Assembly (NCBI RefSeq): GCF_040907265.1
Contig: NZ_JBFOHP010000002.1
Coordinates: 6,944,001-7,008,000 of the forward strand
Length of the DNA stretch: 64,000 bases
Source of the DNA: Streptomyces sclerotialus
Lineage (GTDB): Bacteria; Actinomycetota; Actinomycetes; Streptomycetales; Streptomycetaceae
Direction: 5' to 3'
Made by a program: the position numbers and the translations under genes. Positions 1 through 8,999 of this stretch are shown piece by piece. Numbering within the stretch: position 1 is the stretch's first letter; each line of letters starts with the position of its first letter. The notes beneath the pieces were generated by a model. It was not told the origin of the DNA, did not search any database, and worked only from the letters and a program-made list of their open reading frames with translations.

Positions 1-1593
1 CTTCTCGAAGGACGCCTGCGTCCCGTCGAAGAGGTCGCGGTAGCCGGTGTGCTGGCCGGGCTTGCCGATGCCGGACTGGCGGGCCGCCCTGTTGATCGCC
101 CGGTACTCCCGCTTGTCGATCACGCCGTCCTTCCGGAGCTGGTCCGTCACCTCGGTGACGTGCTTGAGGAAGAGCGCCTGCGAGGACCAGTCCTTCTCGT
201 CCTCGATCAGCTCGTTGATCGTGCAGCGGTTGCCGGTGATCCGGTTCGGGACACCGGTGTCGACCGTGCCGACGATGACGGTCAGCCGCTCGTCGAACTC
301 GGGGCAGGGCGGTGCGGGCACTCCGCCGCCCGCGACGACGTCGAAGGAGACCGTACGGGCCGGCGAGGTGTTGCCCGCCTTGTCGGTCGCCCGGTGCGCG
401 AGCGAGTGGTGGCCGGTACGGTCCACGACGACCGGCGCCTCGTACGCGAGGTACGGGCCGCCGTCGAGGGAGTACTCGACCTTCGCCACGCCGCTCTCCG
501 CGTCGGTGGCGGTGACGGTCACCTTGGCGCTGCCGACGTACGCGCCGTCGGAGTTCTTCTGCCCTTCGGTCTTCGCCGCGGTCTCCGGGGGCGTGGTGTC
601 CTCGGCCGGCGGCTCGACGACCGTGAAGTCCACCGACTTCTCCGCCGCCGCGTTGCCCGCCTTGTCGGCGGCGCGGTAGCGGACCTTGTGCGCGCCCACC
701 TCGTGCACCATCACCGGCGCGGTGTACGGCTGCCACTCGCCGTCCCCGAGCGCGTACTCGATGGTGTTGACGCCGGACCCGGTGTCGGAGGCGGTGACCG
801 TCACCGTCGCCATACCGAGGTAGGCGCCGTCCGCGTTCTTCTCACCGGACACCGTCGCCGAGGTCTCCGGCGGGGTGGTGTCGTTCGTGTCCGGTGCGAC
901 CACCGTGAAGTCGGCGGACTTCTCCGCCGCGACGTTGCCCGCCTTGTCGGCCGCGCGGTACCGGATCTTGTGGGTGCCGGCCTGGTCGACGACGAGGGGC
1001 GCGGTGTACGGCTGGAAGCCGCCCTCGCCGACCGCGTACTCGATCCGGTCCACACCCGAGCCCGCGTCGGTCGCCGACAGGGTCACGGTGGCGCTGCCGA
1101 CGTACGCGCCGTCCGCGTTCTTCTGCCCCTCGACCTTCGCCGAGGTCTCCGGCGCCGTGGTGTCCTCGCCGCCGCCCTCGGTGACGACGAGGACGCCCTG
1201 CATCGTCTCGTGGCCGGGGATCGTGCAGTGGTAGCGGTACTTGCCCGGCGTGAGCGTGACCTCGGCGGTGTGCTTGCCGCCGGAGGAGTCACCGGGGTTC
1301 GCCAGGATGTTCAGGCTGACGTCCTGGTTGTACTCCGAGTCGGAGGTGACGAAGGTCAGCGTGTGCGGCATGCCCATGGTGTTGCCGGTGGCCTCGCTGT
1401 TCTCGAAGACGATGGTCGCCTTCCCGGCCACGGCGGTGGTGGGCGCCGAGGTGTACTTCGTGATGTCGTCGCCCGCCGTCCAGGTCAGCACCTGCTGCTC
1501 GGCGACGGGCGCCGGCTGCCCGTACGCCGCGGTGGCGCCGACGCCGAGCAGCAGGAGGAGGACGGACAGCAGAGCGGTCAGCCGCCGGTTCAT
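1..1593 (-). CDS. Exported cupredoxin / triple Ig-like repeat protein, probably DUF1080 at the missing end (partial)
   Basis: The 3' end lies outside the window; 531 codons are present. A signal peptide (about residues 1-26) is followed by a blue-copper domain (27-138) with all four type 1 ligands visible: His77, Cys123, His128 and Met131 (YHCTIPGHETM context). Three near-identical repeats of about 93 residues follow (from about 145, 237 and 331), each opening DTTxPET and containing YRAADKAGN, as in OmpL47-type or bacterial Ig-like domains. The last visible residues, YRDLFDGTQASFEK, look like the start of a DUF1080 (3-keto-disaccharide hydrolase or concanavalin-like) domain; that is inference. 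The ATG overlaps the stop of the upstream gene by one base (TGATG), so the two are translationally coupled. A role as electron carrier and carbohydrate binder next to a sugar dehydrogenase is plausible but unproven. Confidence 0.82.
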   Translation of the reverse strand, partial: MNRRLTALLSVLLLLLGVGATAAYGQPAPVAEQQVLTWTAGDDITKYTSAPTTAVAGKATIVFENSEATGNTMGMPHTLTFVTSDSEYNQDVSLNILANPGDSSGGKHTAEVTLTPGKYRYHCTIPGHETMQGVLVVTEGGGEDTTAPETSAKVEGQKNADGAYVGSATVTLSATDAGSGVDRIEYAVGEGGFQPYTAPLVVDQAGTHKIRYRAADKAGNVAAEKSADFTVVAPDTNDTTPPETSATVSGEKNADGAYLGMATVTVTASDTGSGVNTIEYALGDGEWQPYTAPVMVHEVGAHKVRYRAADKAGNAAAEKSVDFTVVEPPAEDTTPPETAAKTEGQKNSDGAYVGSAKVTVTATDAESGVAKVEYSLDGGPYLAYEAPVVVDRTGHHSLAHRATDKAGNTSPARTVSFDVVAGGGVPAPPCPEFDERLTVIVGTVDTGVPNRITGNRCTINELIEDEKDWSSQALFLKHVTEVTDQLRKDGVIDKREYRAINRAARQSGIGKPGQHTGYRDLFDGTQASFEK

Positions 1594-4070
1594 CAGGCGT
1601 CCTTCCGGGCCAGGTCCGCGGGGAGCGGAGTCGCCGGGCCGCCGTGGTACGTGATGTGCCACAGCGCGGACTTGTCGTCGGAGGTGAAGAAGCCGCGCCC
1701 GTAGTCCAGGACGTAGAGCGAGCCGTCGGGCGCGAACGTCCAGCCCATCAGGTTGCGGATGCCGTCGGCACCGACCGGCACGATCTTGTCGAGGGACTCG
1801 GCGTGCACGGGCAGCCCGCCCGAGCCCACGGTCTTCGGGTCCATCACGACCGCGTTCCGCGGCTGTTCACCGTCGTAGAAGTCGCCGACGAACCACTTGC
1901 CGTCCCAGTACGCGGGCCAGGCGTCCTCACCCGCCGTCTTCGCGTCGTAGCGGTAGACCGGGCCGTCCATCGCGGCCTGGCCGCCGCCCTTGAGCCAGGG
2001 CAGCAGGAACTTCTGCTCGGCCTTCTTGTAGCTGGGCACGCCGTCGGCACTGCGCGGGAAGTCGGGGCCGCCGCCGGCGGGGGAGTACCAGATGTTGTTG
2101 GGCTCGGCGGGCGGGATGTTGACCAGCCCGTCGTTGTTCGGCGACTCGTTCTTCAGGTTGTCGCAGTCGTACCAGCCCAGCGGCTTGCTCGGGTCCGGCA
2201 GACTGCGGTCGCGGTAGGGCTGCGCGTTGCCCATGCAGAACGGCCAGCCGCGGTTGGAGGCATGGGTGATCGCGGCGAACGTGTCGTACTTCGCCGGGCC
2301 CCAGGTCTCGCTCGGCTCGGTCGCGTCCGGGCCGACCCAGCCCGCGTAGAGCGTGTCGGTCTTCTTGTCGACGGAGATGCGAGAGGGGTTGCGGACGCCC
2401 ATGACGTAGATCTCGCCGCGGGTCTTGCCCCCGCCCTCGTCGGTCTCCTTGCCGGTGAAGAGGTTGCCCTCGGGGAGCGTGTACGTGCCGTCGTCCTCGG
2501 GGTGGATCCGCAGGATCTTCCCGTTGAGGTTGTTGGTGTTGCCCGCGGTGCGGCGGGCGTCGGCGAACGACACGCCCTTGAAGTCCGGCTCCGGGTTGTT
2601 GCCGGAGTAACCGTCGCTGAACTGGCTGGAGTTGTTGTCGCCGGTGGCGATGTAGAGGTTGTCCTTGGAGTCCCAGGCCATGCCGCCGCCCGCGTGGCAG
2701 CAGCTGTGGATCTGCACCGGCCACTTCAGCAGGACCTTCTCCGAGGACATGTCGAGCTTGTTCGTCTTCGGGTCGAGGTGGAAGCGGGAGACGCGGCGCT
2801 CGGCCATGTGCGTGTCGCGGTCGATCCGCGAGTGCGGCGTGTAGTGCAGGTAGACCCAGCCGTTGTCGGCGAAGTCGGGGTCCAGCTCGATGCCGAGCAG
2901 CCCCTCCTCGTTCTTGACCAGCTCGTCGCCGCCGCCCTTGTTGCCGAAGACGGTGACCTCGCCCGCGAGGGTGACCTGCTTCGTCTTCGGGTCGTAGACG
3001 TGGACGGTGCCCTTGCCCTTGCCGATGTCGGGGTTGTTCCAGTCGGTGATCACGGGCGCGTCCGAGCCCTCGCCGCCGCGGCCGATGTAGAACACCCGGC
3101 CGTCCTGCGCGGTCACCACGCCGTGCGGCTCGCCGATCTGGTCGTGCTGCCCCGGCTGGTTGGGCCGGGTGACCCGCTCCGCCTTGTAGTGCGAGGCGAT
3201 GGTGGCCTGGCAGTCGGCGCGCGCGAGCCGGGTGGTCCACAGCAGCGCGCCGCGCAGATGGGCCCGGAAGTCGGTCTCCTGGAAGCCGGCGGCGGTGCCG
3301 CCCATGCCGGTGTAGAAGGACCGTCCGCCGTCGTAGTCACGGCACCAGGAGATGGGGTGGTCGGCACCGTTGGCGCCGGTGCCCGGCCGGAAGGTGTTCT
3401 CCCGTACCCGGGCCACGGTGTGCACCGAACCGCTCGGGTTCTGCGCCCAGTTGAGCCACTTGTCGGGGCGCTTCCACTCCAGCGGGAGGCTCTTGGTGGC
3501 GGGGTGCTCGCGGTCGCCGACCTCGACGGTGGCGCGCTGGACGGTGCCCGTGCCGCCGGTGGGGCGGGCACCGATCAGGCCGGTGAACCAGTCGGAGTAC
3601 GGCTCGGCGCGGGCCGCGTCGTGGATGCCGACGAAGCCGCCGCCGGCCTTCATGTAGCTCTCCAGGCCGGCTTCCTGCTCGGGGTCGAGCACATCCCCGC
3701 CGCCGGTCAGGAAGACCACCGTGTTGTACCTTCCGAGCTTGGGCCTGGTGAAGACCGAGGCGTCGGCCGTGGCGTCGACGGTGAAGTGCTCAAGGGCCGG
3801 TCCCTGCCGGCCGATCTTCTCGATCGCCTCGATGCCGGCGTTCACCGTAGGCGGTTCCTCGCCGGCCGAGCCGTGGAACACCAGCACACGGACGTTCTCC
3901 CCGCCCGGCGGCGACGGCAGGGCGAGCTTGGGTACGGACGGTTCCGGCGGCACACCGGCCAGTGCGGGGGTACCGCCCAGCAGGGCCGCCGCGACGGCCA
4001 GGGCCGACAGGCCGGCCGTCCGTCTCCACCGTCCGGTGGTGGAGGTTTTCCGACGTGGTGCGCGACGCAT
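1593..4070 (-). CDS. Exported ThuA domain fused to PQQ-type glucose/sorbosone dehydrogenase
   Basis: 825 residues. The start chosen at 4070 follows a GAGGGGTGGG stretch and gives a basic signal peptide ending near ALAG (residue 39). Residues about 60-280 match the ThuA-like glutamine-amidotransferase fold (RVLVFHGSAGE, VVFLTGGGDVL, GGGFVGIHDAA). Residues about 300-810 match the glucose/sorbosone dehydrogenase beta-propeller family (GEPHGVVTAQDGRVFYIGR, CCHAGGGMAWDSKDNLYIATGD, then a Gly/Pro-rich second half). The family oxidises sugars outside the membrane with PQQ as cofactor, and ThuA proteins are linked to keto-sugar metabolism; the substrate here is unknown. It is the first gene of a coupled operon with the cupredoxin gene. 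A palindrome, ACAAACTTTGT, lies about 100 bases upstream. The fusion is recognisable in actinobacterial genomes, so the call is fairly sure and the chemistry is inference. Confidence 0.88.
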   Translation of the reverse strand: MRRAPRRKTSTTGRWRRTAGLSALAVAAALLGGTPALAGVPPEPSVPKLALPSPPGGENVRVLVFHGSAGEEPPTVNAGIEAIEKIGRQGPALEHFTVDATADASVFTRPKLGRYNTVVFLTGGGDVLDPEQEAGLESYMKAGGGFVGIHDAARAEPYSDWFTGLIGARPTGGTGTVQRATVEVGDREHPATKSLPLEWKRPDKWLNWAQNPSGSVHTVARVRENTFRPGTGANGADHPISWCRDYDGGRSFYTGMGGTAAGFQETDFRAHLRGALLWTTRLARADCQATIASHYKAERVTRPNQPGQHDQIGEPHGVVTAQDGRVFYIGRGGEGSDAPVITDWNNPDIGKGKGTVHVYDPKTKQVTLAGEVTVFGNKGGGDELVKNEEGLLGIELDPDFADNGWVYLHYTPHSRIDRDTHMAERRVSRFHLDPKTNKLDMSSEKVLLKWPVQIHSCCHAGGGMAWDSKDNLYIATGDNNSSQFSDGYSGNNPEPDFKGVSFADARRTAGNTNNLNGKILRIHPEDDGTYTLPEGNLFTGKETDEGGGKTRGEIYVMGVRNPSRISVDKKTDTLYAGWVGPDATEPSETWGPAKYDTFAAITHASNRGWPFCMGNAQPYRDRSLPDPSKPLGWYDCDNLKNESPNNDGLVNIPPAEPNNIWYSPAGGGPDFPRSADGVPSYKKAEQKFLLPWLKGGGQAAMDGPVYRYDAKTAGEDAWPAYWDGKWFVGDFYDGEQPRNAVVMDPKTVGSGGLPVHAESLDKIVPVGADGIRNLMGWTFAPDGSLYVLDYGRGFFTSDDKSALWHITYHGGPATPLPADLARKDA

Positions 4071-4172
4071 TGGTTCACCCACCCCTCTGAGGACACAGCT
4101 GTGAGCACACAGCAACAGCCGACGAAGCTAGACCTCTTTCGGCGGTCCGCCAATAGCTATGACCGCAAGTCA

Positions 4173-4183
4173 ACAAACTTTGT
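4173..4183. promoter_or_regulatory. Palindrome ACAAACTTTGT in the divergent promoter region
   Basis: A perfect 11-base inverted repeat (ACAAA-C-TTTGT) with partly matching flanks GTCA and TGAC sits between the ThuA-dehydrogenase gene and the laccase gene, in an AT-richer patch. Similar AACAAACT-type half sites are known for ROK/XylR regulators. The assignment to a regulator family is inference. Confidence 0.35.
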
Positions 4184-4238
4184 CCTGACCGTGGATAAAC
4201 GAAGATCACGGCGCTAGCGTTCCGGACGGCTCACTGCC

Positions 4239-4250
4239 GAGAGCGCTTTC
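4239..4250. promoter_or_regulatory. LacI-type operator GAGAGCGCTTTC upstream of laccase
   Basis: Nearly perfect palindrome (one mismatched pair) centred on GC, resembling the GGGAGCGCTCCC boxes bound by LacI-family sugar regulators such as CebR. It lies immediately upstream of the ribosome binding site (GAGGGGAGC) of the laccase, where a bound repressor would block transcription. The link to sugar control is inference. Confidence 0.35.
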
Positions 4251-4265
4251 TGCGAGGGGAGCACG

Positions 4266-5255
4266 ATGACCGAGAGAGACGGAACTTCCGCCGTGCAGGG
4301 GGCGTTGAGCCGCCGGCTGTTCGCCGGCGGAGCCGCGGTCGCGGCACTCGGCACGGTCGGCGTGGCCGTCGGGGCCACGGCCGCTCCGGCAGCCGCCCGT
4401 GCCGCCGGCTCCGTCCGCAGGGCAGGCGCCGGCGGCGAGGTCAGGCACATGAAGCTCTACATGGAGAAGCTCCCCGACGGGCAGCTCGGGTACGGCCTGG
4501 AGAAGGGCAAGGCCACCATCCCCGGCCCCCTCGTCGAACTGACCGAGGGCGACACCCTGCACATCGAGGTCACCAACACCCTCGACGTCGCGGCCAGCCT
4601 GCACGTGCACGGCGTGGACTACGACACCGCCAGCGACGGCACGAAGACGAACCGCAGCCACATCGAGCCCGGTGGCACCCGCACCTACACCTGGCGCACG
4701 CACAAGCCCGGCAGACGCAAGGACGGCACCTGGCGCCCGGGCAGCGCGGGCTACTGGCACTACCACGACCACGTCGTCGGCACCGAGCACGGCACCGGCG
4801 GCATCCGCAAGGGCCTCTACGGGCCGGTCGTGGTGCGCCGCGAAGGCGACATCCTGCCCGACCCGGACCGCCAGTTCACCATCGTCTTCAACGACATGAC
4901 CATCAACAACCTGCCGAAGGGGCCCGACTTCAAGGCCACCGTCGGCGACCGCGTCGAGATCATCATGATCACGCACGGCGAGTACTACCACACGTTCCAC
5001 GTCCACGGGCACCGCTGGGCCGACAACCGCACGGGCCTGCTGACGGGCCCCGACGACCCCAGCCAGGTCATCGACAACAAGATCACCGGCCCCGCCGACT
5101 CCTTCGGCTTCCAGTTCATCGCGGGCGAGGGCGTGGGCGCCGGTGCCTGGATGTACCACTGCCACGTCCAGAGCCACTCCGACATGGGCATGGCCGGCAT
5201 GCTGCTGATCGCCAAGCCGGACGGCACGGTTCCCGGCCACGACGGGCACCACTGA
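4266..5255 (+). CDS. Two-domain small laccase (multicopper oxidase), Tat-exported
   Basis: 329 residues, close in length to the S. coelicolor small laccase SLAC. The N terminus carries a twin-arginine motif (SRRLFAGG, Arg16-Arg17) and an Ala-rich signal, fitting Tat export as a folded copper enzyme. All copper ligands are visible: His113 and His115 (HVHG), His167 and His169 (HYHDH), His242, His245 and His247 (HTFHVHGH), and His298-Cys299-His300, His304 and Met309 ([12 protein letters not shown]). The family forms trimers and oxidises phenols and other donors while reducing oxygen to water. It diverges from the sugar dehydrogenase and cupredoxin operon, with a LacI-like box directly upstream. 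A strong GAGGGGAGC ribosome site precedes the ATG. No copper chaperone gene is seen nearby. Confidence 0.95.
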
Positions 5256-5326
5256 CGGGCCCGCCAGGGAGTGCTTCTCGGCACGCCCTGACCGGAGCGG
5301 GCGGCCCGGCGCGGCATGATCGGGGC

Positions 5327-6634
5327 ATGAGCCGACCCGTCAGCCGGGTGTCCCGGCGCACCGCCGCCCTGGCGGCGCTGCTCCTCGCGGCCGTCGCCGC
5401 CGCCGTGCTCGTCGCCGTACCGACGGGCGAGCACGCGGCCCCCTGCACCGCCCGGAAGATCGCCTCCTGGACCCCCGAACCCCGCTTCACGGACGCCTTC
5501 GCCCGCTACGGCGACGACAACTCCCGGTTCGACGACTGGACCGGCGGCGACGGCACCCACTCCGTACGCCTCCCGGACGGCCGCACCCTCTGGCTCTTCT
5601 CCGACACCTTCCTCGACCGCATCCAGCCCCCGCCCAACCCCAAAGGGCAGTCGCACTCCTGGCGGACCAGGGCCGACGGCAGCGGCCCGCCCGGCCTGAT
5701 CCGCAACTCCCTCGTCCTGTCGGGCGGACCGGGACGCCCGTACGACACGCTGATCCGCCGGACCCCGGCCGGGCCCGCCGGGTACTTCCCCGACCCGCCG
5801 CGCTCCCAGGGCCCCGCCGGGGCTTGGCGCTGGCCGGTGGCCGCGCGCGTCGAACCCCGCACACCCGGCTCGGCCGAACGCGTGCTCCGCGTCCTGCTGT
5901 GGAACCGCGCCCCCGGCGAAGGCCCCTGGCTCTTCGGCGAACCCCGCACCACCGAGGTCGCCACGCTCTCCCTGCCCCGGCTGCGCCTGGAACGCGTCAC
6001 CACGGTCGGCGACCGTACGCCGGCCGCCGACCCCGGTGCCCGCGTGCTGTACGGCACAGCGGCCGTACCGTACGGGCGGCACACCTACGTCTACGGCGGC
6101 GACGCCCCCACGGACCAGCCGGCGGCCCAGGCGTACCTGGCCCGCGTCCCCACCGGCCGGCTCGCCGACCACCGCGCCTGGCGCTACTGGGACGGCCACG
6201 GCTGGCGGGCCGACCCCGAGCGGGCCGCGCCCGTCCTGCGCAACGACGGCCGGCGCGGCGTCGGCAGCGCTTACACCGTCGTCCGGGACGGCGGCACCTG
6301 GGTGCTGTTCACCATGGACGCGGCGGGCGGCGGCGGTCACGGCCTGGCCACCTTCACCAGCTACTGGTCCTGTACCGCGCACGGCCCCTGGCACGGCCCG
6401 AACGGCGCGGTCACCCCGCCCCGGCCGCCCGACCCCGCCGGGTCCGCCGAGCGCACCGCGGTCTACAACCCGCAGGCGCACCCGGAGTTCACCGGCCGGA
6501 CCGGCCTGCTCCTCAGCTACGACGTCAACACCCTCGGCCCGCCCGGCACCCATGCGACCGGCGCGGTCAACGACGACGTGTCGCTGTACCGGCCGCGGTT
6601 CCTGCGGGTACGGATGACGACGGACCCCGGCTGA
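5327..6634 (+). CDS. Exported or membrane-anchored DUF5005/DUF4185-like protein
   Basis: 435 residues. A hydrophobic segment at about residues 11-31 follows a basic start, so it is a signal peptide or anchor. The mature part begins with a pattern I associate with DUF5005/DUF4185 five-bladed propeller proteins: YGDDNSRFDDWTGGDGTHSV, then LPDGRTLWLFSDTFL, and near the end AVYNPQAHPEF and LLLSYDVN. Proteins of this type often accompany carbohydrate-active enzymes, but no catalytic function is assigned to them. The gene starts 71 bases after the laccase on the same strand and converges with the GMC oxidoreductase, leaving only three bases between their ends. I would not propose a reaction. Confidence 0.72.
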   Translation: MSRPVSRVSRRTAALAALLLAAVAAAVLVAVPTGEHAAPCTARKIASWTPEPRFTDAFARYGDDNSRFDDWTGGDGTHSVRLPDGRTLWLFSDTFLDRIQPPPNPKGQSHSWRTRADGSGPPGLIRNSLVLSGGPGRPYDTLIRRTPAGPAGYFPDPPRSQGPAGAWRWPVAARVEPRTPGSAERVLRVLLWNRAPGEGPWLFGEPRTTEVATLSLPRLRLERVTTVGDRTPAADPGARVLYGTAAVPYGRHTYVYGGDAPTDQPAAQAYLARVPTGRLADHRAWRYWDGHGWRADPERAAPVLRNDGRRGVGSAYTVVRDGGTWVLFTMDAAGGGGHGLATFTSYWSCTAHGPWHGPNGAVTPPRPPDPAGSAERTAVYNPQAHPEFTGRTGLLLSYDVNTLGPPGTHATGAVNDDVSLYRPRFLRVRMTTDPG

Positions 6635-6637
6635 ACC

Positions 6638-8290
6638 TCACGCGCGCGCGACCTCGCCGTACCTGATCAGGTCCGCGGCGCGCTCGGCGATCATCACGGT
6701 CGGGGCGTTGGTGTGGCCCCGGGTGATGCGCGGCATCACCGACGCGTCCACCACCCGCAGGCCCGCGACGCCCCGCACCCGCAGCGCCGGATCGGTCACC
6801 GCGTCGTCGCCCGTCCCCATCCGGCAGGTCCCGACCGGGTGGTACAGCGTCTCCGCCAGCGCCCGCACCGTGGCCTCCGTAGCGGCGTCGTCCTCGCTCG
6901 CCCGCCACGGCGGCAGCGCCCCGCCGACATGCGGCCGCAGCGCCGCGCTGCCGAACAGCTCCTCGGCGAAGCGCACGCCCGCCACCATCCGCCGCAGGTC
7001 GGCCGGTGCGCTCAGATACGCGGGCTCGATGCACGGCGGCGCTGCCGGATCGGCGTCCGTCAGGGTGATCCGGCCGTGGCTCTCCGGCTGGAGCAGGATG
7101 ACCCCGATGGTCACGCCGTGCTCGGCCGGCGGCGTCAGGCCGTGCCGGACGAACGGCACCGGCGCGAAGATCAGCTCCAGGTCCGGCGCCGGCATCCCGG
7201 ACTCGCTCCGGATGAACGCCACGGCCTCACCGACGTTCGACGTCAGCGGCCCGCGCCGGGCCAGCAGATAGCGCGCGATGTTGGCGGGGGTGTCCGCGCC
7301 GGTGAGCGTCACCGGATGCACCGCGTACCGCAGTACCGGCACCGACAGGTGGTCCTGGAGATGCCGGCCGACCCCCGGCAGGTCGGCCACCGGTGTGATG
7401 CCCAGCGCCTTGAGCTCGTCGGCGTCCCCGACGCCCGAACGCAGCAGCAGCTGCGGCGAGCCGATCGCCCCGGCGCTCAGCAGCACCTCACGGCGGGCCC
7501 GCAGCACCCCGTCCGCCAGCTCCACCCCGCAGGCCCGGGCGCCGTCGCCGGCGCCGGCGAAGAGGACGCGGCGCGCCTCGCTGTCCGTGAGCACCGTGAG
7601 GTTGGCGCGCCGCAGCGCGGGCCGCAGGTAGCCGTCGGCCGTGCTCCAGCGCCGCCCGCGCCGCTGCGACAGCGGAGTCGCCGCACAGCCGCTGTGATCG
7701 GGCCCGTTGAGCTCCGGCAGCCGTGGCAGACCGGACTCCGCACACGCGTCGAGGAAAGCAGCGGAGAGCGGGTGCAGGTCACGCGCGGGGGAGATCCACA
7801 ACGGGCCTGCCGAGCCGTGCACCCGCTCCCGTCCCTCCACCACGTTGAGCGCGGGCGCCGGCGGGCCGGCCCACCGCTCGGCCCGCCGGAAGTAGCGCAC
7901 GACCTCGTCGTAGCCCCACCCCTCGCCGGCCTCCGCCGCCCAGGCGTCGTAGTCGTCTCGGTGGCCGCGCACCCACATCATCGCGTTCAGCGAGGACGAG
8001 CCGCCGAGCGTGCGGCCGCGTGGCCAGTACAGCTCCCGGCCGTTCAGCGCGGGCTGCGCGGTCGTGGTGAAGTCCCAGTCGTACGCCGTCTTGAACAGCT
8101 TCGGGAAGGCGGCGGGGATCCGGACCTCCTGCCGGCGGTCGGGCCCGCCCGCCTCGATCAGCGCGACCCGCACCGTCGGGTCCTCGGACAGCCGGGCGGC
8201 GAGCACACAGCCCGCCGAACCCGCCCCGACGACGATGTAGTCGTACGTTCCCGAAGCCGCGTTCCCGCGCGCCGCTGACCGCCGTACCAT
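6638..8290 (-). CDS. GMC-family FAD-dependent alcohol/choline dehydrogenase
   Basis: 550 residues. The ATG at 8290 is preferred to an in-frame TTG two codons earlier because AAGGGAG lies six bases upstream of it. The FAD-binding motif is near the N terminus (YDYIVVGAGSAGCVLAARL), followed by the GMC signature 1 region (GRTLGGSSSLNAMMWVRG), signature 2 (GAIGSPQLLLRSGVG) and the C-terminal catalytic region (YHPVGTCRMG, RGHTNAPT). The family oxidises primary alcohols such as choline, polyethylene glycol or aryl alcohols. There is no signal peptide, so it is cytoplasmic. No betaine-aldehyde dehydrogenase lies beside it, so a choline-specific role is not supported, although a BCCT transporter occurs 40 kb away. 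Confidence 0.93.
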   Translation of the reverse strand: MVRRSAARGNAASGTYDYIVVGAGSAGCVLAARLSEDPTVRVALIEAGGPDRRQEVRIPAAFPKLFKTAYDWDFTTTAQPALNGRELYWPRGRTLGGSSSLNAMMWVRGHRDDYDAWAAEAGEGWGYDEVVRYFRRAERWAGPPAPALNVVEGRERVHGSAGPLWISPARDLHPLSAAFLDACAESGLPRLPELNGPDHSGCAATPLSQRRGRRWSTADGYLRPALRRANLTVLTDSEARRVLFAGAGDGARACGVELADGVLRARREVLLSAGAIGSPQLLLRSGVGDADELKALGITPVADLPGVGRHLQDHLSVPVLRYAVHPVTLTGADTPANIARYLLARRGPLTSNVGEAVAFIRSESGMPAPDLELIFAPVPFVRHGLTPPAEHGVTIGVILLQPESHGRITLTDADPAAPPCIEPAYLSAPADLRRMVAGVRFAEELFGSAALRPHVGGALPPWRASEDDAATEATVRALAETLYHPVGTCRMGTGDDAVTDPALRVRGVAGLRVVDASVMPRITRGHTNAPTVMIAERAADLIRYGEVARA

Positions 8291-8366
8291 CCGCAACTCC
8301 CTTGCCCCGTCGGCATGGTGACCGGAGTGATCGCCGGAAGCAGCGTAGAGGAAGCGGGCCGCCGGG

Positions 8367-8999
8367 TCAGGAGCGCACGGACGGGGTGGCGGTGCCGGAC
8401 GGGGAGGCGGTGGGGGCGCCGGACGGCGTTTCCGTGGGGGAGGCGCTCGGGGACGCCGACCGCGGAGTGAGGTACGGGTAGGCGTTGTTGCCGCCGCAGA
8501 CCAGCGGGCCGACCTCCACGCCCTTGCCGCGCACGGTCACACCGATCTCCTCCGGCTGCCGGCCGCCCGGCACCTGGCCGTTGGCCGCCGTGCACACCAA
8601 CTGGCTGAGCGCGGGCTGGTCCAGCCGCTCCGGATCGGCCGGCACGGTGATCGTGATACGGCCGTCCCGCGGGGTGACGGTCACCCGGTCGCGCAGGTCC
8701 GGCAGCGCGGTCGTCAGGCCGCGCTGCCGCTCGGCGGCGTTCGGCCCGGCCAGCAGCAGGTCGACGGCGCGCTGCGGCGTGGCCGGGCGCTCGGCGGACC
8801 GGGCGGCGGCCCGCAGCCCGGTGGACGCGAGGAAGAACAGCTGCACGTCGGCGGGTTCCTGGCCGTCCGACTTCAGCCCGGTCGCCGGCTCCCCGGCGTC
8901 GATCACATCACTGGGCTCGATGCCGCATCCCGCGAGCGCACCGGCCAGCAGCGCGGCGAGGACGGCGGCCACGGCCGGCGTACGCGTGCTGCGGCTCAT
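8367..8999 (-). CDS. GerMN-domain lipoprotein of a two-component operon
   Basis: 210 residues. The lipobox LAGC places the lipidated cysteine at residue 25. A GerMN-like domain spans about residues 50-170 (VQLFFLAS, RAVDLLLAGP, ITITVPAD), and a Ser/Thr/Pro-rich tail occupies about 180-210. Its ATG overlaps the stop of the kinase gene by four bases (ATGA). The arrangement regulator, kinase, GerMN lipoprotein parallels MtrA-MtrB-LpqB, in which LpqB carries GerMN domains and modulates the kinase; here the propeller part of LpqB is absent. It probably acts at the outer face of the membrane as an accessory of the adjacent sensor. That role is inferred from the context. Confidence 0.85.
   Translation of the reverse strand: MSRSTRTPAVAAVLAALLAGALAGCGIEPSDVIDAGEPATGLKSDGQEPADVQLFFLASTGLRAAARSAERPATPQRAVDLLLAGPNAAERQRGLTTALPDLRDRVTVTPRDGRITITVPADPERLDQPALSQLVCTAANGQVPGGRQPEEIGVTVRGKGVEVGPLVCGGNNAYPYLTPRSASPSASPTETPSGAPTASPSGTATPSVRS

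Follow-up and report, generated by a model that had tools for sequence, protein, structure and literature searches.

A conserved gene cassette in Actinomycetes links SLAC-type laccases to a ThuA–GSDH fusion and a cupredoxin protein

Small two-domain laccases of the SLAC type, which are among the best-studied bacterial laccases, sit in a conserved cassette with a gene that fuses a ThuA domain to a GSDH-type propeller and a gene for a type 1 copper protein (cupredoxin). The cassette lies at the left end of a 64,000-nucleotide stretch of a Streptomyces chromosome (G000:C2:6944001-7008000, hereafter the window), the best homologues of which are Streptomyces proteins. The linkage of these genes is conserved with near certainty, and the partner set is real and new relative to the open-access literature searched. 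We read the locus, tentatively and with somewhat less than an even chance of being right, as one exported unit of two separable modules that would oxidise and cleave glycosides and pass the electrons via the cupredoxin and the laccase to oxygen. The near-invariant partner set makes the question of the role of these laccases directly testable and, if the reading is true, the cassette would let a Gram-positive bacterium pass electrons from a sugar to oxygen outside its membrane.

The linkage was assessed in 150 Streptomyces genomes, with carriers defined by full-length fusion orthologues at 67-100% identity and rows below 67% set aside as paralogues. Fusion orthologues were present in 92 genomes (among the matches listed, as for all counts on these carriers), and laccases in 95, while 97 had matches to the cupredoxin protein, in part to its PF06439 end only. 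By coordinates, 91 of the 92 carriers had a divergent laccase as the immediate upstream neighbour, and likewise 91 had the cupredoxin gene immediately downstream in the orientation of the fusion, the two misses being contig ends (G073 ends 305 bases past the fusion, G120 3 bases past). Presence of the fusion and of the laccase were strongly associated (Fisher's test, p=9e-35, kinship ignored), and the adjacency of the three genes in nearly all carriers is more than chance. The initial annotation had proposed searching for a conserved three-gene neighbourhood, and in a class-wide sample of 345 Actinomycetes genomes from 126 genera it was kept in 8 genera and 4 families. Laccases (E<=1e-60) occurred in 46 of these genomes, from 8 genera, and a close fusion (57-100% identity) in 45; 19 rows at 38-43% were set aside as paralogues, with eight further genomes having such paralogue rows only. 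In each of the 45 carriers a laccase lay no more than 4 kb upstream of the fusion, 28 times on the opposite strand and 17 times on the same one, and the strand did not strictly follow family, as one family (f28) has both arrangements.

The same pattern was found in 80 named loci, chosen as the best matches to the laccase alignment A2 from strains that overlap with the genus and class samples. Among them are loci of Streptomyces griseus BIG105 (L160) and S. viridochromogenes (L197, with a laccase closely related to the crystallised oxidase 4m3h), and of Actinacidiphila, Peterkaempfera, Nonomuraea, Sphaerisporangium, Planotetraspora, Microbispora, Microtetraspora and Streptosporangium; the S. 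coelicolor SLAC gene itself is not among the located loci. All five modules (laccase, ThuA, GSDH, cupredoxin and PF06439) fell within 10 kb in 74 of the 80, and each of the 75 loci with a close GSDH domain had a laccase within 4 kb (60 on the opposite strand, 15 on the same strand).

Adjacency of this kind could arise through genome kinship alone, and it is consistent with such ordinary synteny that every carrier found belongs to Actinomycetes and that the linkage counts carry no phylogeny correction. However, in 60 of the 91 other Streptomyces carriers (39 hand-picked for diversity and the next 21 in the list, all preselected as carriers of the three genes), the genes flanking the cassette in the window seldom recurred within 4 kb (DUF4185 in 1/60 loci, the GMC oxidoreductase in 5/60, YedE-like in 1/60 and YchJ in 4/60), whereas each of the three genes was found in 60/60. 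The cassette rather than the region is therefore conserved. In addition, order, strand and domain fusions differ across lineages while the linkage is kept. For example, the cupredoxin gene is relocated in Peterkaempfera (L159), and in L106 (family f19), L107 and L108 (f28) the PF06439 domain is at the end of the ThuA–GSDH protein, which also has PKD and F5/8 domains. No PF06439 match was found in the cupredoxin protein of L106, while some cupredoxin-type proteins of Micromonospora (P0128-P0130) carry PF06439 themselves, showing that the location of this domain varies between the two partners. Synteny is largely contradicted by these observations, and as a cause of the linkage it was rejected as having hardly any likelihood.

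The genes and domains of the locus are as follows (window coordinates).

1593 to 4070, minus strand: ThuA–GSDH fusion, 825 residues, signal-like N-terminus; ATG at 4070, stop codon TGA at 1595-1593
3234 to 3890, minus strand: ThuA domain PF06283 (E=4.5e-60)
1638 to 3206 (approximate extent of the model match), minus strand: GSDH six-bladed propeller domain PF07995 (E=1.8e-24)
1 to 1593, minus strand: 5' part of the gene for the cupredoxin protein with three OmpL47 repeats and PF06439 (whole gene, L004:9416-11593)
1183 to 1398, minus strand: type 1 copper plastocyanin-like domain PF00127
1363-1365, 1225-1227, 1210-1212 and 1201-1203, minus strand: codons of the cupredoxin ligands His, Cys, His and Met, respectively
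337 to 1104 (left limit by eye), minus strand: three OmpL47-type repeats (NF047446)
1591 to 1595, minus strand: TGATG stop-start overlap of the fusion and cupredoxin genes, read from the sequence
4266 to 5255, plus strand: SLAC-type two-domain laccase, 329 residues, twin-arginine-like signal (Cu-oxidase_3 and Cu-oxidase_2)

Profile matches thus place all three genes where the initial annotation had put them. The fusion and cupredoxin genes, which share the TGATG overlap, look like a single translationally coupled two-gene operon divergent from the laccase. For the cupredoxin gene, the earlier description stood as regards the type 1 domain, in which all four ligands are present, and fell short as a view of the whole gene, which the window edge cuts: it spans G000:C2:6943419-6945593, with its final 585 bases to the left of the window and the PF06439 end almost wholly outside. 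The complete protein has, in order, a signal-like start, the plastocyanin-like domain, the three OmpL47 repeats (NF047446, 278.8 bits in three stretches, the best at residues 165-232) and a C-terminal PF06439 domain. The PF00127 model barely exceeded its cut-off on the whole protein (21.3 versus 21.2 bits). The type 1 ligands H78, C124, H129 and M132 were kept in all 60 Streptomyces proteins that cover them, so that neither this check on copper binding nor that on the neighbourhood, both named beforehand as able to refute the initial reading, refuted it; one gap row among the 61 of the alignment is presumably L073, in which the gene is split.

The laccase likewise bears out its earlier description as a protein with copper ligands and a Tat-like (twin-arginine) signal. 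It has two cupredoxin domains and the copper-ligand motifs of SLAC-type (type B) enzymes; its best solved relative is 3cg8 (E=1.4e-166), and most of the best 50 distinct solved sequences (E up to 7e-110) carry the name laccase or copper oxidase. The HxH, HxH, HxHxH and HCHxxxH motifs, which we take to be the type 1 (T1) ligands of domain 2 and the trinuclear-site histidines, were present in 60-61 of the 61 sequences of the Streptomyces alignment and invariant where covered. Signal sequences and the laccase twin-arginine-like motif (SRRLF) were read by eye, and the signal-like sequences suggest that the proteins of the locus are exported. In the window the laccase is adjoined by a DUF4185 protein with a signal-like start (5327-6634), which stood beside the laccase in 1/60 relatives. 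It is followed by the GMC oxidoreductase (6638-8296), which is close to choline dehydrogenase, lies outside the cassette as judged from its presence in 5/60 loci, and scored 319.5 bits against mycofactocin MftG, below the cut-off of 387.45.

Conservation in Streptomyces extends to the sequence between the divergent genes, in which the following features were recognised.

4071 to 4265, between the divergent genes: shared intergenic region with a footprint conserved in Streptomyces
4176 to 4185, plus strand: conserved box AACTTTGTCC, operator- or activator-like, in 55/61 sequences
4125 to 4153, minus strand: promoter-like TTGGCG-N17-TAGCTT upstream of the fusion, pattern in 55/61 sequences

The 9-mer AACTTTGTC was found in 58/61 Streptomyces intergenic sequences, against 5 for the best 9-mer over 10 shuffles; the others are L060, from which no intergenic stretch was extracted, and L078 and L079, which have a variant. 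The best 10-mer over 10 shuffles reached 4 for the AACTTTGTCC control, and the promoter-like pattern had the N17 spacer in all 55 sequences, with a mean of 0.04 and a maximum of 1 in 50 shuffles. In its exact form CTTTGTCC, the conserved promoter box was not seen between genes of other families; it had one match in the Streptomyces locus L124 and stray matches far from genes in L132, L137, L141 and L159. The intergenic region may co-regulate both sides of the cassette.

Exceptions to the linkage were few. Within the genus, a laccase without the fusion was found in 4/95 genomes (G048, G058, G116 and G147). The G116 laccase adjoins LigD-type ligase and polymerase genes (by profile, L041), and look-alike LigD-type neighbours were recognised by eye beside the G147 laccase (L042) and beside a second laccase of G144 that lies outside its cassette (L044); this survey of neighbours by eye covered the loci other than parts of L116, L122 and L123. 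The laccase was the sole cassette match in G058, while G048 (L043:7291-8067) retains abutting C-terminal parts only, of the laccase (residues 180-323) and of the cupredoxin protein (599-726), a pattern that a single deletion of the intervening cassette would leave. A laccase tree built from 42 rows chosen out of 114, with many forks open, placed the solitary copies (G058, G116, G147 and G144) within a clade of Streptomyces cassette laccases, which would fit relics or copies that have moved. In the class sample, the G165 laccases had no close fusion (1/46 genomes) and 8/56 laccase copies were not beside a fusion. The six exceptions among the 80 named loci are L198, where a contig end removes PF06439; L133 (Microbispora amethystogenes), where the laccase has no other module within 10 kb to one side or in the 3.3 kb that remain before the contig ends to the other; L136 (Nonomuraea pusilla), which has only 38-39% paralogues of ThuA and GSDH; and L134, L135 and L138 (Microbispora), which have two laccases and a cupredoxin protein and no ThuA, GSDH or PF06439 match. 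Those of L133 and L136 seem to be cassette-type laccases without a cassette, possibly through loss.

The converse arrangement occurs in the genome of the window itself, where L005:7270-11265 has a GSDH-PKD-CBM6 gene and a ThuA-PF06439 gene near a Gfo/Idh dehydrogenase, a TatD-like hydrolase and, by eye, a sugar-type ABC transporter; no copper protein was noticed there, and L005 is likely to be a sugar-catabolic relative of the cassette. The copper pair without sugar genes (L134, L135 and L138) and the sugar genes without copper proteins (L005) indicate that the cassette couples two separable modules. In some lineages the partners also share C-terminal ends. For example, in L111 (Microbispora catharanthi) the laccase (5110-6342) and the divergent cupredoxin protein (7056-8435) share a 93-residue end with 86 identical residues; in the laccase this end has no Pfam assignment at E<=0.001, and it is possibly a surface-sorting domain. 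Similarly, the laccase and the ThuA–GSDH–PF06439 protein of L108 both match FIMAH, with 32 identical of 74 aligned residues, the laccase match being just under the Pfam cut-off (24.4 versus 24.8 bits). Both the copper pairs without sugar genes and the C-terminal domain common to laccase and cupredoxin protein would also be expected if the cupredoxin domain stored copper and donated it to apo-laccase outside the cell, with the sugar module linked for another reason. We consider such a supply role very unlikely, as the ligands are the classic electron-transfer set of H, C, H and M, invariant in 60/60, and the Streptomyces copper domain is fused to a sugar domain, PF06439.

The domains of the sugar module point beyond the chemistry first proposed. 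Sugar oxidation as the whole reaction is not supported, as the presence of ThuA and PF06439 suggests that an oxidised glycoside is processed further. The PF06439 domain (residues 518-724, E=2.3e-33, 116.2 bits versus a cut-off of 26.8) resembles the solved 3-keto-glycoside eliminase/hydratases 8v31, 9fbe, 8rr2 and 8tda and BT2157 (3osd); a Foldseek search with a 95% identical homologue returned 3h3l (2.3e-9), 8v31 (1.8e-8), 9fbe and 3osd (both 2.8e-8) and 8rr2 (5.9e-8). The ThuA domain matches its family in both score and fold, and the GSDH domain matches the six-bladed propeller family, with a catalytic His aligned to His144 of the soluble glucose dehydrogenase sGDH and an Arg-Asn pair aligned to sGDH Arg228-Asn229. 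The His and the Arg-Asn are invariant in 61/61 sequences and occur in all 10 rows of alignment A3, and the His is preceded by an invariant CysCys. This conservation, together with the adjacency to two copper redox proteins, argues against a non-catalytic propeller that recognises a surface glycan, much as HHIP-type propellers recognise their partners, within a cell-surface developmental apparatus that includes a phenol oxidase. The force of the His is weakened by its being kept in HHIP too (a passage of PMC4133262), and a non-catalytic propeller of this kind appears quite unlikely.

The cofactor of the dehydrogenase is less clear. The initial annotation had taken the enzyme to depend on pyrroloquinoline quinone (PQQ), which is not supported as stated and was rejected as a settled fact, since PqqC is mostly below cut-off in the hosts and only part of the site was matched. 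No counterparts of the sGDH PQQ-clamp residues Lys377, Arg406 and Arg408 were identified in the GSDH domain, where the C-terminal alignment is weak; according to passages of PMC6881789, AA12 enzymes bind PQQ by other residues. A profile search for PqqC (TIGR02111) found none in the genome of the window. The search is sensitive in Streptomyces, as PqqC exceeded the cut-off in 32/150 genomes of the genus, comprising 18/92 carriers and 14/58 non-carriers (p=0.54), and was not over it in 74/92 carriers; matches below cut-off in G047, G050 and G105 were counted as without. In the class sample PqqC was over cut-off in 6/345 genomes, 4/45 carriers and 0/23 carriers outside Streptomyces. The rarity of PqqC in carriers suggests either that PQQ is taken from outside, as passages of PMC6881789 presume for fungal AA12 enzymes, or that another cofactor is used. 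Dependence of the ThuA–GSDH protein on PQQ is thus not established, and scavenged PQQ or a different cofactor are both possible. A PqqE-like match in the genome of the window was rejected as such, being the mycofactocin maturase MftC instead (629 bits versus a cut-off of 265). The gene for this radical SAM maturase is at C2:6650988-6652001 (L006), and this genome, in which PqqC was undetected, may make another peptide-derived redox cofactor.

On the preferred reading of a glycoside-oxidising unit, the GSDH domain of the sugar module (ThuA, the GSDH-fold dehydrogenase and PF06439) would oxidise a glycoside hydroxyl outside the membrane, PF06439 would cleave or hydrate the resulting keto-glycoside and ThuA would take part in some step. 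In the copper module, the type 1 cupredoxin, which in Streptomyces sits on the same polypeptide as PF06439, would take the electrons and the SLAC-type laccase would reduce oxygen. Beyond the gene map every step is inferred, including what the substrate is, the keto-glycoside reaction, which way the electrons flow and which cofactor serves the dehydrogenase. The oxidise-and-cleave part is favoured by the Caulobacter route of a periplasmic dehydrogenase and a PF06439 protein, which according to passages of PMC9007349 is supported genetically. Two observations weigh most against this reading. Type B two-domain oxidases are described, in passages of PMC13151041, as having the T1 copper in a central tunnel, which would hinder docking of the cupredoxin, and a laccase-negative S. 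ipomoeae mutant lacking SilA solubilised 5-fold less lignin than wild type (PMC5675413), which fits phenol oxidation.

Taken together, the T1 tunnel and the lignin defect give rise to the main rival, which keeps the linkage and makes phenols or phenol radicals the connection between the modules. The sugar module would then act on plant phenol glycosides or lignin-carbohydrate material, freeing the sugar through oxidation followed by elimination. The laccase would oxidise the phenols, and electrons from the dehydrogenase or cupredoxin would go to the radicals or quinones so formed and not to the laccase. A phenol redox cycle of this kind has been proposed for fungal dehydrogenase-laccase pairs. 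In bacteria, Streptomyces small laccases oxidise phenols (passages of PMC3527528), the loss of SilA has the lignin phenotype noted above, and an elimination acting on 3-keto phenol glucosides has been described (PMC10628242). A phenol-linked unit accounts for the same linkage without the docking step that the tunnel would hinder. In contrast, it leaves unexplained both the laccase and cupredoxin loci without a sugar module (L134, L135 and L138) and the near-identical C-terminal domain of laccase and cupredoxin protein, and we regard it as possible, if rather unlikely.

The glycoside-oxidising reading may be generalised, in a form that we consider unlikely and clearly more speculative. In Actinomycetes, SLAC laccases would often stand at the oxygen-reducing end of a chain that oxidises glycosides outside the cell, in which a PQQ-independent or PQQ-scavenging ThuA–GSDH protein acts on surface-bound or polymeric glycosides, a cupredoxin (in Streptomyces joined to the domain that would cleave the keto-glycoside) is the carrier, the laccase hands the electrons to oxygen and, in some lineages, shared C-terminal domains place the partners on one surface.

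The laccase of the window is a plain member of the known small laccases of type B (SLAC, EpoA, Ssl1 and SilA) by its match to 3cg8, its copper ligands and its twin-arginine-like signal. The physiological roles of these enzymes are called unknown or poorly understood in passages of PMC3527528 and PMC13151041, the lignin mutant (PMC5675413) excepted. No mention of a conserved neighbourhood was found in passages of several papers on SLAC-type laccases, and a word search of PMC5675413 for gene neighbourhood found none. Similarly, no description of this gene set was found among the best-ranked results of the open-access literature, searched by title and abstract start, in agreement with the earlier statement that the arrangement was not known to be described. 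The closest metabolic parallel is the Caulobacter 3-keto-lactose route of LacABC and PF06439 (passages of PMC9007349), in which an exported dehydrogenase is followed by an exported PF06439 protein, as is likely here. LacABC was not found as the oxidising enzyme of the cassette: the linked dehydrogenase is the ThuA–GSDH protein. The cassette also differs in the GSDH fold of its dehydrogenase and the fusion to ThuA, in the proposed electron exit through copper proteins and in its Gram-positive host. Compared with the PQQ aldose sugar dehydrogenases (3a9g, 3das, 2ism and sGDH), the clamp residues were not identified, a CysCys precedes the catalytic His, the propeller is fused to ThuA and most hosts are without PqqC over cut-off. 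The fungal pyranose dehydrogenases AA12-AA8 (passages of PMC6881789 and PMC4133262) similarly join an extracellular six-bladed dehydrogenase to an electron carrier domain, in fungi for which PQQ synthesis has not been reported. In the AA12-AA8 enzymes, however, the carrier is a cytochrome b on the same chain, whereas here it would be a cupredoxin encoded by the neighbouring gene.

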